NCBI RefSeq assembly: GCF_001182745.1
Contig: NZ_LN868939.1
Span: 1,674,001 to 1,738,000 of the forward strand
Source of the DNA: Nocardia farcinica
Lineage (GTDB): Bacteria; Actinomycetota; Actinomycetes; Mycobacteriales; Mycobacteriaceae
Length of the DNA: 64,000 nt
Reading direction: 5' to 3'
Part shown: piece after piece, positions 2,231-8,550 of the stretch
Position numbering within the stretch: position 1 is the first letter of the stretch
How the letters are laid out: each line of letters opens with the position of its first letter
Made by a program: the position numbers and the translations under genes
Notes under the pieces: generated by a model
What the model was told of the DNA's origin: nothing
Seen by the model: the letters and a program-made list of their open reading frames with translations, nothing else
Databases searched by the model: none

Positions 2231-3625
2231 TCAGGCGGTGCCCACGGTCTGCGGCAGCGGCCGCGGCCGCGGGAGGGCCAGGCCGTCGAGCAGGACGAAA
2301 TACCGGCGCACCATGAGGATCGCCGTCGCGGCCAGGCCCGCGGTCAGCCCCCACCACACGCCCGGTGCGCCGAGGCCGACCGGCAGCGCCAGCACCAGCG
2401 CGGTGGGCAGACCGACGAGCCAATACCCGATCAGCGACAGCCGGAACCCGGCGCCGGTCTCCTCCAGCCCGCGCAGCAGCCCGGTACCGATGTTCTGGGC
2501 GGCGTCGAAGAACTGCAGGACGATGCCGATCAGCAGCAGCACCCGGGCGATGTCGAGGGTCGCCGTGTCGGCCGGGTCCAGGAACGGGCGCAGCACCAGC
2601 TGCGGCGCCAGCACGTACAGCGCACCCGTCACCGCCGCCACCACACCCGCGTAGCGCAGCGCGAGCCATGCGACGTGGCGGGCGTGCGCGTGTTCGTCGC
2701 GGGCCACGGCGTGGCTGACCAGGATCGAGGCGCCGTGCGAGAGGCCGATCGCGACCTGGAACACGATGTAGATGATCTGGTAGACGACGTTGTGCGCGGC
2801 CAGCGCCGCGGGTCCGAGGCTGCCCATGACCAGCGCGAGTACCGAGAACATCCCGGCCTCGGAGCCGTAGGTCAACGCGATCGGCGTGCCGAGACGCAGC
2901 TCGGCGAGGACCGTACGCCCGCGCACCGGCCACGGCCGGACCGACAGCATCGCCCCGAGCCGCTCGTCGTGGCGCACCATCGCCCAGAAGACACCGAAGG
3001 TGATCAGGAAGACCAGCGAGGTCGCCACGCCGACGCCGGTGAGCCCCAGTGCGGGCACACCCGCCCAGCCGTGGATGAAGGCCAGCGCGAGCACCAGGTT
3101 CAGCGCGATCGATGCCAGCGTCACCAGCAGCAGGGCCTGCGGTCGCTGCATGCCGACGGTGTACTGCCGCAGCACCTGGAACCACAGGCACGGCAGCAGG
3201 CCGGGGGCGAGCGCGACCAGCAACGGGCGCGCCTCGGCGAGCACGCTCGCGTCCTGGCCCAGCCATTGCAGGGACCAGCCGAGCCCGATCAGCACCGCAC
3301 CGCCGAGGAGTCCGGCCAGGGTGGCGACGAGGAAGCTGGCGCGCACGATCTCGCGCACCTCGCCCGCGGGCGAGTCACCTCGTTTGTCCGCGGCGCTCAC
3401 CGCGGCCGCCACCTGGTTGCCGGTGCCGGTGACCAGCCCCACGCACATCGTGCGGATCTGGTTGAACAGCACCAGTGCCAGTCCGCCCGCGGCGACCGCG
3501 CCGACCCCGAGGGTGCCCATGAGCGCGATGTTGGTGGTCGACACGGCGATCTGGGCCAGCTGGGTCAGCGCGATCGGCGTGGCCAGCGCGGCCAGCCTGC
3601 GCGTGTCCGGACCGAACGGAGTCAT
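2231..3625 (-). CDS. MATE-family efflux transporter, last gene of the iron-box operon
   Basis: 464 residues with about twelve hydrophobic segments and the two-fold MATE arrangement; the N-terminus (ALATPIALTQLAQIAVSTTN) matches the first MATE helix. MATE proteins export cationic or small organic compounds using a proton or sodium gradient. The ATG at 3625 is preferred over longer in-frame extensions because GAGGTG stands just upstream and the extension overlaps the preceding gene. It lies 40 bases after the SbnA-like gene on the same strand, so I infer that it exports the product of that pathway. It could instead be an unrelated multidrug pump. Confidence 0.88.
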   Translation of the reverse strand: MTPFGPDTRRLAALATPIALTQLAQIAVSTTNIALMGTLGVGAVAAGGLALVLFNQIRTMCVGLVTGTGNQVAAAVSAADKRGDSPAGEVREIVRASFLVATLAGLLGGAVLIGLGWSLQWLGQDASVLAEARPLLVALAPGLLPCLWFQVLRQYTVGMQRPQALLLVTLASIALNLVLALAFIHGWAGVPALGLTGVGVATSLVFLITFGVFWAMVRHDERLGAMLSVRPWPVRGRTVLAELRLGTPIALTYGSEAGMFSVLALVMGSLGPAALAAHNVVYQIIYIVFQVAIGLSHGASILVSHAVARDEHAHARHVAWLALRYAGVVAAVTGALYVLAPQLVLRPFLDPADTATLDIARVLLLIGIVLQFFDAAQNIGTGLLRGLEETGAGFRLSLIGYWLVGLPTALVLALPVGLGAPGVWWGLTAGLAATAILMVRRYFVLLDGLALPRPRPLPQTVGTA

Positions 3626-3665
3626 GGCTGCACCTCGGTGTGCGCGGGGCGATACGGCGGGGTGA

Positions 3666-4694
3666 TCATCGCGCGTGGGCCAGGGCGGGGCGGCGGGCGG
3701 CGGGTGCGTACCGGCGCAGGTGCTCGCGCACGCGGTCCTCGACGGCCGGGGCGAGCAGGTCACGCGCGCGCATCCAGTCGTCGTCGAAGACGGTGTCGAG
3801 GTACTTCTCCCCGCCGTCGCACACGATGGTGACCACCGTCGACCCGGGCGGGAACTGCTCGAGCCGCTCCAGGCCGACATACACCGAGCCGCCCGCGGAG
3901 CCGCCGAGCATGAGCCCGAGTTCGGCCGCGACGGCGCGCGCGGTGGCGAAGGCATCGGTGTCGGACACCTTCACGCCCTCGTCGAGCAGCGAGTAGTCGA
4001 CGGCGGTGCCGATGGTGGCGCCGGGCGGCGTGCCGGTGCCGGACTGCCAGTACGGGCCGCCCGGGCCGCCGAAGGCGATCGAGCCCACCGGCTCCACCCC
4101 GATCACGTGCGGCGGGCAGCCGAGCTGGCGCAGCCGGGTCGCGGTGCCGAAGAGCGAGCCGCCGGTGCCCACCGCCGACAGCAGGATGTCGACCCGCTCG
4201 ACATCTTCCAGCAATTCTTCGGCGACCGGGTAGTAGCCGACCGCGTTGGCGTCGTTGTTGTGCTGCTCGGTGAAGTACCCGCCGCATTCGGCCGCCATCG
4301 CCTCGGCCAGGTCCTCCCGTGCCGAGGTCGCCAATCCGTCGTCACCCTCGTCGGCGACGTACACCAGTTCCGCACCCATCGCTGCCATCGCGCGCAGTTT
4401 GTCCTTACAGGCGTGGTGATCGACCACCGCGGTGAAGCGATACCCACGTTCGGCGGCAACCACCGCGAGGCCGAGCCCGGTATTGCCGGACGTGGACTCG
4501 ATGATATGCCCGCCAACCTCCAGCAAACCGCGCCGCTCCGCGTCGAGCACCATTTCGCGTGCCATCCGGATCTTGGCGGCGCCGGTGGGGTTGAACTGCT
4601 CCAGCTTGAGCAGCAGGCGGGTGCCGGTGTCGGTGGTGGCGAGTTCGAACAGTGGCGTGCGGCCGATCAGATCCGTCACACGGGTGACGAGCAT
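3666..4694 (-). CDS. SbnA-like PLP synthase (diaminopropionate or related C-N bond formation)
   Basis: 342 residues of the cysteine-synthase fold. The PLP lysine is K41 in NPTGAAK, the phosphate loop is STSGNTG near 85-91, and the tail VTIVCDGGEKYLD resembles S. aureus SbnA more than CysK. SbnA condenses O-phosphoserine with glutamate to give N-(1-amino-1-carboxy-2-ethyl)glutamate, which SbnB splits to 2,3-diaminopropionate. The usual NPxGSxKDR of cysteine synthases is NPTGAAKIR here. The ATG follows GAGGAG eight bases upstream. It sits 97 bases after the decarboxylase gene, with an SbnB-like gene in the same operon, which favours an SbnA role over cysteine synthesis. Donor and acceptor substrates are inferred, not shown; an aspartate-using (EDDS-like) variant is possible. 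Confidence 0.82.
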   Translation of the reverse strand: MLVTRVTDLIGRTPLFELATTDTGTRLLLKLEQFNPTGAAKIRMAREMVLDAERRGLLEVGGHIIESTSGNTGLGLAVVAAERGYRFTAVVDHHACKDKLRAMAAMGAELVYVADEGDDGLATSAREDLAEAMAAECGGYFTEQHNNDANAVGYYPVAEELLEDVERVDILLSAVGTGGSLFGTATRLRQLGCPPHVIGVEPVGSIAFGGPGGPYWQSGTGTPPGATIGTAVDYSLLDEGVKVSDTDAFATARAVAAELGLMLGGSAGGSVYVGLERLEQFPPGSTVVTIVCDGGEKYLDTVFDDDWMRARDLLAPAVEDRVREHLRRYAPAARRPALAHAR

Positions 4695-4791
4695 GGGTGG
4701 TCTCCTCGGGTACGGGGGCGGGCCGCGGCACGGCCGTCCGGCGCGCGTACCGGGGCCCGCGTGGTGGTGTGGATGGTGGGGTGACGGCGCG

Positions 4792-6303
4792 TCAGCGGGT
4801 GTCCAGGGCCCAGCGCAGTCGGCCGCCGTCGGTCTCGTGCAGTACGACCTTCGGCGGGATCGGTAGTTCATGGAAGGCGGATTCGTTGGAATCCATCTGG
4901 TACCCGGCGGTATTCGGGTAGACGAGCAGGTCGCCGGGTTCGGCGGCGCGCGGCAGGGGGATGCGCCGCCAGCTGAGCATGTCCGACTCCAGGCAACTGG
5001 TGGCGCCCACGCAGGTGGGGGTGGGCGCACCGGGGCGGGTGGGCCACAGCAGCGGGTCGGGTAGGTATTCGCTGGCGAACCACTGCTCGGACAGGCTCAG
5101 GCTGGTGCCGTCGACGGTCAGCAGCCGGTACGGCCGCCCGTGCGCGTGGCGGGTCTTGGCGCCGCGCACGCCGAACACGGTGCAGCCCGCCCGGTCGAGC
5201 AGCGCGCGGCCCGGCTCGATCGCGAGCCGGATGCCGTTGCCGCGCAGCAACTCCGCGAGGCCACCGTGACGCAGGATCTCCGCGAGCATGGCGGCGCCGG
5301 GAACGGGGAAGTGGTAGGGGTAGTAGGAGTCGAAGCTCTTGCCCGCGTGGAACCAGGCGGGCCCGGCCGCCGCGGTGAACGCCGCCCACGCCTGCGCCGG
5401 GACGTAGTCGACACCGAAACCGCCGCCGATGGAGATGGTGTCGGCGGCGTGGCCCTCGGCGCGGGCGCGTACACACCGCTCGACCAGGACGGCCGCCAGC
5501 TCGGCGCGGGCGCTCGCCTCGTACCCGCCGAGGTGGAAGCTGAATCCGGCCAACCGGATCCGGGTGCCGGCGAGCAGGGTGAGCGCCCGGTCCAGTTCCT
5601 CGTCGGTCATGCCGAAGCGGCTGTCCGATGCCGGTGGTAGCACGCGCAGCAGCACCCGGGTGTCGAATCCTGCGGCGACCATCCGCTCGAGTTCGTCGAC
5701 GGCGTCGACGGCGACCACCGCGCCGTGCCGGGTGGCCAGCCACAGCAACTCGTCGGATTTCGCCGGTCCGGTGACCATCAGCTCCGGGCCGCGCACGCCC
5801 TGGGCCAGCGCCGCGGTCAGCTCGCCGACGCTGGCCACGTCCACGCCCGCGCCCTGTTCCGCGCACGCCCGCGCGATGCAGACGGCCTTGTTCGCCTTCT
5901 TGCCGTAGTAGACGTATCCGTCGACCCCGGCCGTGGTGAAGGCGACCTGGAACGCGGCGATGTTGGCCCGCACCCGCGCCGGGGCGAGCAGATGGAACGG
6001 CGTACCGACGGCGAAGGCGATGTCGGCCAACAGGTCCGGGTCCGCCAGCACCCGCCGCTCCCAGTCGCCCAGGTGCGCGGGCATGGGCACGGCCGCGATC
6101 GAGGCGGCGTCGTCGCCCGGCCGTTCCGGCCAGCCCGGGATCGGCAGGGGCACGGTCTCGTCGGGCAGCGCCGGTGCGGGCGCGACGTCCGCGGGCGCCT
6201 CGGCGCTATCGTCGGCCGCCCGCGGGACGTACGCGGCCGGGTCGACCTCGAACAGCACCATCTCGCCCGCGCCGGGCAGGTCCACGCCCACCTCTGTTCC
6301 CAC
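4792..6303 (-). CDS. Fold-type III PLP decarboxylase (ODC/DapDC family, SbnH-like)
   Basis: 503 residues. The alanine-racemase-type barrel starts near residue 95: the PLP lysine is in YYGKKANK, a HLGG motif follows the middle, GGGFG binds phosphate, EPGRALL is the typical C-terminal half-site, and CLESD carries the active-site Cys and Asp. This makes it an amino-acid decarboxylase of the ornithine/diaminopimelate class; SbnH, which decarboxylates citryl-diaminopropionate, belongs here. About 90 N-terminal residues, rich in Ala, Pro and Asp, precede the barrel and are unusual. GTG at 6303 is chosen because GGAGG lies seven bases upstream inside a repeated hairpin; a GTG at 6330 is possible. 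A lysA role is unlikely given the context. Confidence 0.82.
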   Translation of the reverse strand: MGTEVGVDLPGAGEMVLFEVDPAAYVPRAADDSAEAPADVAPAPALPDETVPLPIPGWPERPGDDAASIAAVPMPAHLGDWERRVLADPDLLADIAFAVGTPFHLLAPARVRANIAAFQVAFTTAGVDGYVYYGKKANKAVCIARACAEQGAGVDVASVGELTAALAQGVRGPELMVTGPAKSDELLWLATRHGAVVAVDAVDELERMVAAGFDTRVLLRVLPPASDSRFGMTDEELDRALTLLAGTRIRLAGFSFHLGGYEASARAELAAVLVERCVRARAEGHAADTISIGGGFGVDYVPAQAWAAFTAAAGPAWFHAGKSFDSYYPYHFPVPGAAMLAEILRHGGLAELLRGNGIRLAIEPGRALLDRAGCTVFGVRGAKTRHAHGRPYRLLTVDGTSLSLSEQWFASEYLPDPLLWPTRPGAPTPTCVGATSCLESDMLSWRRIPLPRAAEPGDLLVYPNTAGYQMDSNESAFHELPIPPKVVLHETDGGRLRWALDTR

Positions 6304-6347
6304 AGCGGCACCTCCGTGCCCTAATCCCACAGTGGCACCTCCGTGCC
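6298..6347 (-). repeat. 23-bp direct repeat with GGAG-loop hairpins at the SbnB/decarboxylase junction
   Basis: Two 23-bp copies (6298-6320 and 6325-6347, one mismatch) are separated by four bases that include part of the SbnB-like stop codon. On the minus strand each contains GGCACGGAGGTGCC, a five-base stem with the Shine-Dalgarno GGAG in the loop. One copy lies in the last codons of the SbnB-like gene and the other directly before the decarboxylase GTG. Confidence 0.75.
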
Positions 6348-7331
6348 GCGGCCCTCGGCGATGGCGCGTTCGGCGAGGGCGTGGGCGACGGCGATGTCGG
6401 TGAGCACCAGACCGCTGTTGTAGACGAAGATCTTCTCCTCGTCCGAGCGCCTGCCCACCGCGCGCCGGGTGAGAATGTGCGGCAGTTCGGCGTCCACGCC
6501 GCGCAGTGTGCCGTCCGGCCCGGCCATGTCGGTGCCGGTCAGCCGCATCTGCTCGGCGCTGGTGGCCACCACGCGGTCGGCCTCGACCAGGGTCGAGGGC
6601 GCCAGGCCGTAGCCGACCAGGACGACGGTGGAACCCGGTGCCAGATCGGCGGATTCGAGGGCGACCTCGGTGCCGGGGCCCGCGGTCGCCAGCACCACGT
6701 CCGCGCCCGCCGCCGCGGCACGTGGATCCTCGACGGTCTCGAGCAGCGCGTGCGGGTTGTGCTCGGCCAGGTGCCGGTGCACGGCCGCCAGCCCCTCGGC
6801 GTGCGTGCCGTAGACCATCAGCTTGCGCAGCTGCGGATTGGCCGCCAGCAGGTGCGGCAGCGCGTTACGGCCCTGGGTGCCGGTGCCGATGAGCAGCACG
6901 CTCTCCGCGCCGCGGCGCATCGTCTCGCGCACCAGCAGCGCCGACACCGCCGGGGTGCGCAGCGCGCCGACGCGCGCGCAGTCCATCATCGCGATGGGTG
7001 CGCCGGTGGTGTCGTCGTAGAGCGTGATGGTGGTGTAGTAGCGCTTGGTGCTGCGGTCGTGGCCGGGGTCGAACTTGTAGCTGGTCTTCATGGCGACCAC
7101 CCGGCGCCGGCCGTCGCGGCCCAACATGGCGTAGGCGACCGACCAGCCGTCCGGATTGGCCACGCTGAGCTTGCGCGGATTGTCCGAATCGCCCGCGGCG
7201 AAGGCGAGATACGCGTCCTCCACGGCGCGCACCACCTCGCCCGGCGTGATCGGCACGTCGGCGAGATCGCTGCGGCTGAGCACGCGCAGCGGCGTGCTCC
7301 GGTCACGAGTGTTCACGGCGTCCTCGTTCAT
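6321..7331 (-). CDS. SbnB-like ornithine cyclodeaminase/mu-crystallin family dehydrogenase
   Basis: 336 residues, the usual length for this family. The N-terminal substrate domain contains VAMKTSYKFDPGH, and a Rossmann nucleotide site LIGTGTQGRN begins near residue 147. SbnB oxidatively splits the SbnA product into L-2,3-diaminopropionate and 2-oxoglutarate with NAD+. The paired SbnA-like gene downstream makes that reaction more likely than ornithine cyclodeamination or alanine dehydrogenase. The ATG at 7331 overlaps the oxygenase stop by 29 bases; GTG at 7316 has a better ribosome site (GAGGA) and may be the true start. Tight overlap means co-translation with the oxygenase. Confidence 0.85.
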   Translation of the reverse strand: MNEDAVNTRDRSTPLRVLSRSDLADVPITPGEVVRAVEDAYLAFAAGDSDNPRKLSVANPDGWSVAYAMLGRDGRRRVVAMKTSYKFDPGHDRSTKRYYTTITLYDDTTGAPIAMMDCARVGALRTPAVSALLVRETMRRGAESVLLIGTGTQGRNALPHLLAANPQLRKLMVYGTHAEGLAAVHRHLAEHNPHALLETVEDPRAAAAGADVVLATAGPGTEVALESADLAPGSTVVLVGYGLAPSTLVEADRVVATSAEQMRLTGTDMAGPDGTLRGVDAELPHILTRRAVGRRSDEEKIFVYNSGLVLTDIAVAHALAERAIAEGRGTEVPLWD

Positions 7332-8454
7332 CAGGTGTCGTTTCCCGCTCTGCTCCCGCTCGGCCGATCCGTTTCCGGAACGGGGCGACTGTGCGCTGCC
7401 CGTACCCATTCTCGTCGGCTTCGGCGGCCCGGCGCCGTCGTTCGGGCAGGCGGATGTTCACCCGCTTGAGCCAGCGATCGGTGCCGTCGTACCGCGCGGT
7501 GAACGGTACCCGACCGTGCACCGCGACATCGTTGTCCACCAACAGCATTTCGCCGGGCGCCAGCGCCACGGTGACGCAGACCCGTTCCAGCTCCGCGCCC
7601 AGGCGGGCGTAGGCGAGCCGGAAGGCCGGGTCGGCGTCGTCGAGCGGAGTGTAGGCGGGGTCGTAGCGCAGCGTGGGAAACGATGCGGCTCCGGTGTTTT
7701 CGGCCGCGTCCCAGATGGTCGGCAGCGGTACGGCGGTGTGCCGCTCGTGCCCGTCGCCGTAGGAGACGTCCGGCAGGATCGGCAGCGTCGGTATGGTCAG
7801 CAGCGCGCGATCGGCGGGGTCGAGGTCCACCCGGCGGATCGAGGACACCGTGGTGCCGACCGCGTCGACGTTGCGCAGGCACGCGAGCATCAGCAGATTC
7901 GCGCGCTCGGGGTGGAACGCGTCCTCGGTGTGCGGGCTGAGCAGCGTGGCGCTGCTGGCCCCGGACTGTTCGAATTCGTGGCCGGGGCTCGGCACGATGT
8001 TGTTGACCAGCCTGCCGTCCTGCTGGCCGACCCAGCCGAACGGCTCGCCCGCGCACCGGGCGAGCAGCAGCACGGCCAGGTCGAGACGCAGCGACGCCGA
8101 GTGCGGATCCGCGGCGGCACTGCGCGCCGCCGCGCGCCAATTCGCCGGTGTGGGGCCCAATTCCGCGTCGGTGAGCGGTAGGCGGCGCAGCACCGCGGCG
8201 CCCGCGTCGCCCTCGGGCGGGCGCACGGCGTGGCGTACCGCGTCGGGCAGTTCGCCCGCGCGCGCGTCGATCAGCTCGAGCAGCGCCGGGTCGGTCAGGG
8301 TCGTGGTGTGCCGTGCCGGGCCGGGCAGGCGCGCCAGTGTGGTAGATATCTCGTCGGCCAGCTCGCGCACGGCCCGCGCGGCGGCCGCGGGGAGTTCACG
8401 GTGTTCGATGTCCAGTGGGTGAAGCGTCTTACGTTCCGGGAGAACGCTTTTCAC
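7303..8454 (-). CDS. Clavaminate synthase-like Fe(II)/2-oxoglutarate oxygenase (AsnO/VioC type)
   Basis: 383 residues. H175 and E177 in SPHTEDAFHP form the HxE iron pair of the AsnO/VioC subgroup, the distal histidine is in DNDVAVHGR, and the 2-oxoglutarate-binding arginine is probably in DRWLKRVNIR. Preceding residues (NNIVPSPGHE) also match the subgroup, whose members hydroxylate the beta carbon of free amino acids such as Asn or Arg. Start is GTG at 8454, with AAGGGA seven bases upstream; longer starts would put the iron box inside the gene. It is first in the operon. I infer it beta-hydroxylates an amino-acid building block, perhaps to make an iron-binding hydroxy acid; the substrate is unknown. 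Confidence 0.85.
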   Translation of the reverse strand: MKSVLPERKTLHPLDIEHRELPAAAARAVRELADEISTTLARLPGPARHTTTLTDPALLELIDARAGELPDAVRHAVRPPEGDAGAAVLRRLPLTDAELGPTPANWRAAARSAAADPHSASLRLDLAVLLLARCAGEPFGWVGQQDGRLVNNIVPSPGHEFEQSGASSATLLSPHTEDAFHPERANLLMLACLRNVDAVGTTVSSIRRVDLDPADRALLTIPTLPILPDVSYGDGHERHTAVPLPTIWDAAENTGAASFPTLRYDPAYTPLDDADPAFRLAYARLGAELERVCVTVALAPGEMLLVDNDVAVHGRVPFTARYDGTDRWLKRVNIRLPERRRRAAEADENGYGQRTVAPFRKRIGRAGAERETTPDERGRREHS

Positions 8455-8510
8455 CAGGGATTCCCTTCTTCGCATCGGATCGAAAAGCGGTGGGGGCGAA
8501 TCGAACTGCG

Positions 8511-8550
8511 AAGCTATCCGGTCCTGCCGACTTAAGCAAGCCTTACCTAA
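8511..8550 (-). promoter_or_regulatory. IdeR/DmdR iron box over a promoter for the five-gene operon
   Basis: On the minus strand, 8550-8532 reads TTAGGTAAGGCTTGCTTAA, matching 15 of 19 positions of the actinobacterial iron-box consensus TTAGGTTAGGCTAACCTAA. Inside it TTGCTT (8539-8534) and, 17 bases on, TAGCTT (8516-8511) make a plausible -35/-10 pair, so iron-loaded repressor would cover the -35. The predicted start of transcription is about 50 bases before the GTG of the oxygenase gene. Expected behaviour is repression with iron and induction without it. Confidence 0.75.

Follow-up and report, generated by a model that had tools for sequence, protein, structure and literature searches.

The 64,000-nucleotide stretch of Nocardia farcinica DNA analysed here (contig NZ_LN868939.1, positions 1,674,001 to 1,738,000; hereafter the window) is part of a 6.46 Mb genome and carries, at 2231-8475 on its minus strand, five open reading frames (ORFs) that form a tight unit. 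We read this unit as an aminopolycarboxylate siderophore operon of the ethylenediaminesuccinic acid hydroxyarginine (EDHA) type, a member of a cluster family that has already been described (probability about 0.92). In order of transcription, the genes encode a VioC-like oxygenase, an SbnB-like enzyme, a fold-III pyridoxal phosphate (PLP) decarboxylase, an SbnA-like enzyme and a MATE exporter, and an iron box lies upstream. A sequence-only reading of this DNA had listed the same families in five overlapping or closely set minus-strand genes, and both the open frames and the family models bear it out. Its guess of an iron-regulated, exported amino-polycarboxylate is consistent with the match to the EDHA cluster and with the iron box. 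Its suggestion that the pathway was a new one does not survive, however: the same five genes are part of the named EDHA cluster, a finding that the reading itself had listed as grounds for giving up the claim.

The closest parallel to a published system is in Streptomyces scabiei 87.22, where the same five genes occur in the same order and on one strand, with an iron box upstream of the oxygenase gene (locus L054). Identities between the window and this locus are 53% for the oxygenase, 58% for the SbnB-like enzyme, 54% for the decarboxylase, 68% for the SbnA-like enzyme and 54% for the MATE protein. Together with four divergent importer genes, encoding a family-5 solute-binding protein (SBP_bac_5), two permeases and a double ATPase, the operon genes give nine ORFs over 11.0 kb (L054:2799-13836). 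The published EDHA cluster of this strain is 11 kb long and runs from SCAB_5231 to SCAB_5311 (PMC8914351), which would be nine tags if these step by ten. We take L054 to be that cluster because the two agree in organism, in length, in the number of ORFs and in the genes they contain, a match made on these features and not through locus tags. Two differences separate it from the window: the S. scabiei cluster has its own divergent four-gene ATP-binding cassette (ABC) importer, which does not lie beside the window cluster, and it lacks the N-terminal extension of the window decarboxylase. Streptomyces sp. MA5143a, used as the EDHA reference (PMC10702961), has the S. scabiei arrangement, with the five genes in the same order (L058). 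Within Nocardia, genome G440 (probably N. brasiliensis) contains an EDHA-type cluster whose five genes are 69-92% identical to those of the window and keep the same gene order, preceded by an iron box of 17/19; unlike the window, it has its own divergent importer.

The published record of this family already extends to Nocardia. EDHA is entry BGC0002567 in MIBiG, and of 1,450 EDHA-family windows counted in one survey, 328 were from Nocardia (PMC11888242). N. brasiliensis has been listed as a bearer of the cluster, citing Spohn 2018, in a paper that counts the EDHA genes as four, AesA-D, and calls the product iron responsive (PMC10702961). The S. scabiei copy was missed by antiSMASH, the cluster type being poorly characterised (PMC8914351); antiSMASH 7 did detect such clusters in a later paper (PMC10702961). 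EDHA is not mentioned in the excerpt of PMC11479980.

The predicted iron-type operator (IdeR/DmdR-type) lies at 8532-8550, reading TTAGGTAAGGCTTGCTTAA on the minus strand. It scored 15/19 against TTAGGTTAGGCTAACCTAA, the sole place in the window to reach at least 14, and 17/19 against TWAGGTWAGSCTWACCTWA, the International Union of Pure and Applied Chemistry (IUPAC) iron-box consensus. No second site with at most three mismatches to TWAGGTWAGSCTWACCTWA was present in the window, and none of 100 shuffles of the window produced one. Across the whole genome there were 11 sites with at most three mismatches (2 for a reversed control pattern), and the box at 8532-8550 is one of only two with two mismatches. 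Its position is also conserved. Among the 30 best-scoring Nocardia loci in a search with the oxygenase (window included), a box of 16-17/19 precedes the oxygenase match by 74-96 bases in 28, and the remaining two have a 15/19 site at a different distance. Across 600 single-base shuffles in this comparison the top score was 15, reached a single time. The genome scan, the shuffles and this conserved position led us to reject a chance occurrence, and the 15/19 box claimed earlier is thereby upheld.

The gene coordinates given here use the likely starts, and none of the first four proteins reached an NCBIfam equivalog cut-off. The oxygenase (7303-8475, minus strand, 390 aa) is a VioC-like Fe(II)/2-oxoglutarate amino acid hydroxylase with a TauD domain. 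Its closest NCBIfam model was GntD, an enduracididine hydroxylase (240 bits), followed by VioC (200 bits), both below cut-off, and its best relatives in the PDB are mostly named arginine hydroxylases. Residues H182, E184 and H320 were invariant in an alignment of five sequences that included the window; we take them to be the metal ligands, by homology to VioC. This invariance agrees with a VioC-type metal site, which appears to be intact, and the enzyme is probably an L-arginine beta-hydroxylase.

The SbnB-like gene (6321-7331, minus strand, 336 aa) overlaps the oxygenase gene and encodes a member of the ornithine-cyclodeaminase family (PF02423; TIGR03944 SbnB, 101 bits). The decarboxylase gene (4792-6330, minus strand) overlaps it in turn and, as called, encodes 512 aa of the Orn/DAP decarboxylase group (PF02784), with an uncertain start; its KKANK motif was invariant in five aligned sequences. 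Its N-terminus carries a proline/alanine-rich extension of ~70 aa, either real or the product of a mis-called start. Among the best 120 of 1,446 decarboxylase relatives, in which the organisms named are Nocardia, some are 600-800 aa long. After a gap of 97 bases follows the SbnA-like PLP enzyme (3666-4694, minus strand, 342 aa; PF00291; TIGR03945 SbnA, 224 bits), and 40 bases further on the MATE-family exporter (2231-3625, minus strand, 464 aa; PF01554), which scored above the cut-off of TIGR00797. We call the two enzymes SbnA-like and SbnB-like because the SbnA and SbnB models matched only below their equivalog cut-offs. On one side the operon is flanked by a gene with an SLT domain and an enolase gene, and on the other by TerD.

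The operon is the form, found almost throughout Nocardia, of a siderophore cluster that has been published, and is ordinary for the genus. The oxygenase (E <=1e-20) was found in 97 of 98 Nocardia genomes, the SbnA-like enzyme and the MATE protein (E <=1e-80) in all 98 each. In 92 genomes all three are neighbours; in five of the remaining six the pieces are split between contigs, and in the sixth, G407, the oxygenase gave no match. Of 396 genomes sampled from the whole phylum, 6 had a close decarboxylase (E <=1e-60), the window's own included. A wider search returned 404 stretches of genome_contigs that encode a decarboxylase relative, of which we kept the best 80; these lean to Streptomyces because the first row of the query was a Streptomyces-like sequence. 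All five genes were present in order in 72 of the 80. Among the other eight, six run into contig ends, L123 (Burkholderia sp. MS389) has no oxygenase match and L124 (Streptosporangium) has no MATE match. A divergent solute-binding protein accompanies 66 of the 72 complete loci, and 66 of the 72 have a box of at least 15/19 no more than 700 bases ahead of the oxygenase match; control stretches of 700 bases inside the decarboxylase gene reached a maximum of 12.

While gene set, gene order, iron box and conservation are features of the sequence itself, the route that follows is one we infer. Iron-loaded IdeR/DmdR would repress the operon at 8532-8550, and low iron would release it. The VioC-like oxygenase would then make 3-hydroxyarginine. 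The SbnA-like enzyme would exchange the phosphate of O-phosphoserine for an amino acid attached through its amine, either hydroxyarginine or aspartate, to form an N-linked diaminopropionate, from which the decarboxylase, needing a free amine, would strip the diaminopropionate carboxyl to leave an aminoethyl arm. Working in the reductive sense, the SbnB-like enzyme would couple this amine with a keto acid such as oxaloacetate, and the product would have an ethylenediamine bridge between hydroxyarginine and succinate. The MATE protein would export it; re-uptake in this species would need a different importer. The order and partners of the three middle steps are proposed on two grounds, SbnA/SbnB chemistry and the free amine that a PLP decarboxylase requires. 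Production of EDHA itself by this species would follow from this scheme.

Several observations weigh against the assignment to the EDHA type. In six of the 72 complete loci, the 700 bases ahead of the oxygenase match hold no iron box of at least 15/19 (L097, L098 and L116, plus L122, L126 and L129 from Burkholderiales). The published cluster includes four ABC-importer genes that do not lie beside the window copy, and the best match to the solute-binding protein elsewhere in the window's genome is 32-34% identical. The EDHA product and its iron response, as cited, rest on the title of Spohn 2018 and on citing papers, and we met no report of the EDHA metabolite from Nocardia in the passages and listings covered. 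Finally, the oxygenase is ~53% identical to that of S. scabiei and has GntD as its best NCBIfam model, so the hydroxylated residue could differ from arginine. This last point, together with an N-terminal segment that is present in three aligned Nocardia oxygenases and absent from the S. scabiei frame, speaks for an operon of the same family whose Nocardia product is a different hydroxylated aminopolycarboxylate, built for example on another amino acid or keto acid. We consider this unlikely, as most of the closest relatives of known structure carry the name arginine hydroxylase and much of the oxygenase core is invariant between Nocardia and Streptomyces.

Other known systems share parts of the gene set. 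The ethylenediaminedisuccinic acid (EDDS) cluster of Amycolatopsis japonicum makes a product of the aminopolycarboxylate class with related enzymes, and its regulation is zinc dependent according to a title cited in PMC9248904. That the operon makes such a zinc-controlled, EDDS-type chelator is very improbable: the window has an iron-type box where the EDDS cluster is zinc regulated. The SbnB/decarboxylase/SbnA/MATE core does also occur in Nocardia clusters without the oxygenase, one of them, in G440, with a Zur-like box, but the oxygenase is present in all but one of the 98 Nocardia genomes. Moreover, a Zur-type scan with a consensus found no site with at most three mismatches in the window, although just 0.07 would be expected by chance, and we rejected zinc control on the lack of such an operator. 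Staphyloferrin B synthesis has the SbnA/SbnB-like pair in common with the window and requires synthetases of the non-ribosomal peptide synthetase (NRPS)-independent siderophore (NIS) class. The window's genome gave no IucA/IucC match at E <=0.001, in a search whose control recovered this family from 2 of 14 named genomes, and its SbnA and SbnB models fall below equivalog cut-offs; a NIS or staphyloferrin B pathway was rejected for want of IucA/IucC. The view of the sequence-only reading, that of a minimal pathway under iron control which is new and has no kinship with any described cluster, draws on the neighbours searched (TerD, the SLT-domain gene and enolase), which show no importer or synthetase. 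It is contradicted by the gene-for-gene match to the EDHA clusters of S. scabiei and MA5143a, which leaves it next to no probability, and we rejected it on that match. The absences on which that reading had remarked hold in part: within the operon, the only part of the window covered in this respect, there is no NRPS gene, and no IucA/IucC gene was found in the genome. The importer is indeed missing beside the genes.

The importer varies within the EDHA family, and we therefore treat it as accessory to the EDHA-type operon. Taking at least 540 bits and at least 54% identity as a strong match, the solute-binding protein was adjacent to the operon in 46 of the 98 Nocardia genomes, elsewhere in 22 and not found in 30, the window's genome among these. 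Of the 22 placed elsewhere, one (G446) is only 4 kb away, and in draft genomes some may adjoin across contig breaks. At E <=1e-30 a match was found in 76 of the 98, eight of which, including the window's genome, reach only 28-37% identity. The window's genome also has a FecCD permease and an ABC ATPase with two iron boxes (G000:C1:1583481-1584323, or C1:1.58 Mb; L150), a candidate siderophore importer. At C1:3.50 Mb, iron boxes lie near lysine/ornithine-monooxygenase and polyketide genes. Either system could belong to other siderophores, for example nocobactin.

Variants of the core occur alongside the operon in other genomes. A second SbnA-like and MATE pair was found in 18 of the 98 Nocardia genomes, in none of them within 8 kb of the oxygenase. 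In G440, an SbnB-decarboxylase-SbnA-MATE cluster without oxygenase lies behind ABC-importer genes (L145:2487-12313, on G440:C1) and has a Zur-like box of 13/15, with 0.02 expected in that locus. This suggests an EDDS-like cluster; the box is suggestive only, because in the scan of 12 loci L122 also scored 13/15, and L126 and L129 12/15. In G474, an oxygenase-less operon of the same four genes (L146:9287-17702, on G474:C3) has an iron box of 17/19 and divergent Peripla_BP_2/FecCD genes, which suggests an EDHA-related variant without hydroxyarginine. In G150, of the same family as the window's genome, an SbnB-decarboxylase-MATE set with a distant SbnA-like gene (35%; L047:5086-10167) lacks both a match to the VioC-like oxygenase and an iron box of at least 16/19, and is another variant of the core. 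The four-gene core was also seen in the Burkholderiales loci L122, L123, L126 and L129. Because the oxygenase is unmatched in L123 and only 29-31% identical in the other three, an EDHA product in these Burkholderiales loci may stand on less firm ground than is assumed in one paper, although the loci compared do not include that paper's own Burkholderia anthinoferrum genomes.

Tentatively, and at rather less than even odds, we propose that the four-gene core is a portable chelator module placed under different metal switches in Nocardia: with an arginine hydroxylase and an iron box in the window, without the hydroxylase and with a zinc-type box in G440, and without it but with an iron box beside a FecCD importer in G474. 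The EDHA-type product of the window would then be exported without the usual importer, and any recovery of it would run through a different importer with an iron box, for instance the FecCD system at C1:1.58 Mb. The apparent novel lead is closed, as the operon belongs to a published siderophore cluster family already reported in Nocardia. Two features, the uneven occurrence of the importer and the paralogues that lack the oxygenase and have other metal boxes, raise small, testable questions about the re-use of a single chelator core for iron and for zinc.

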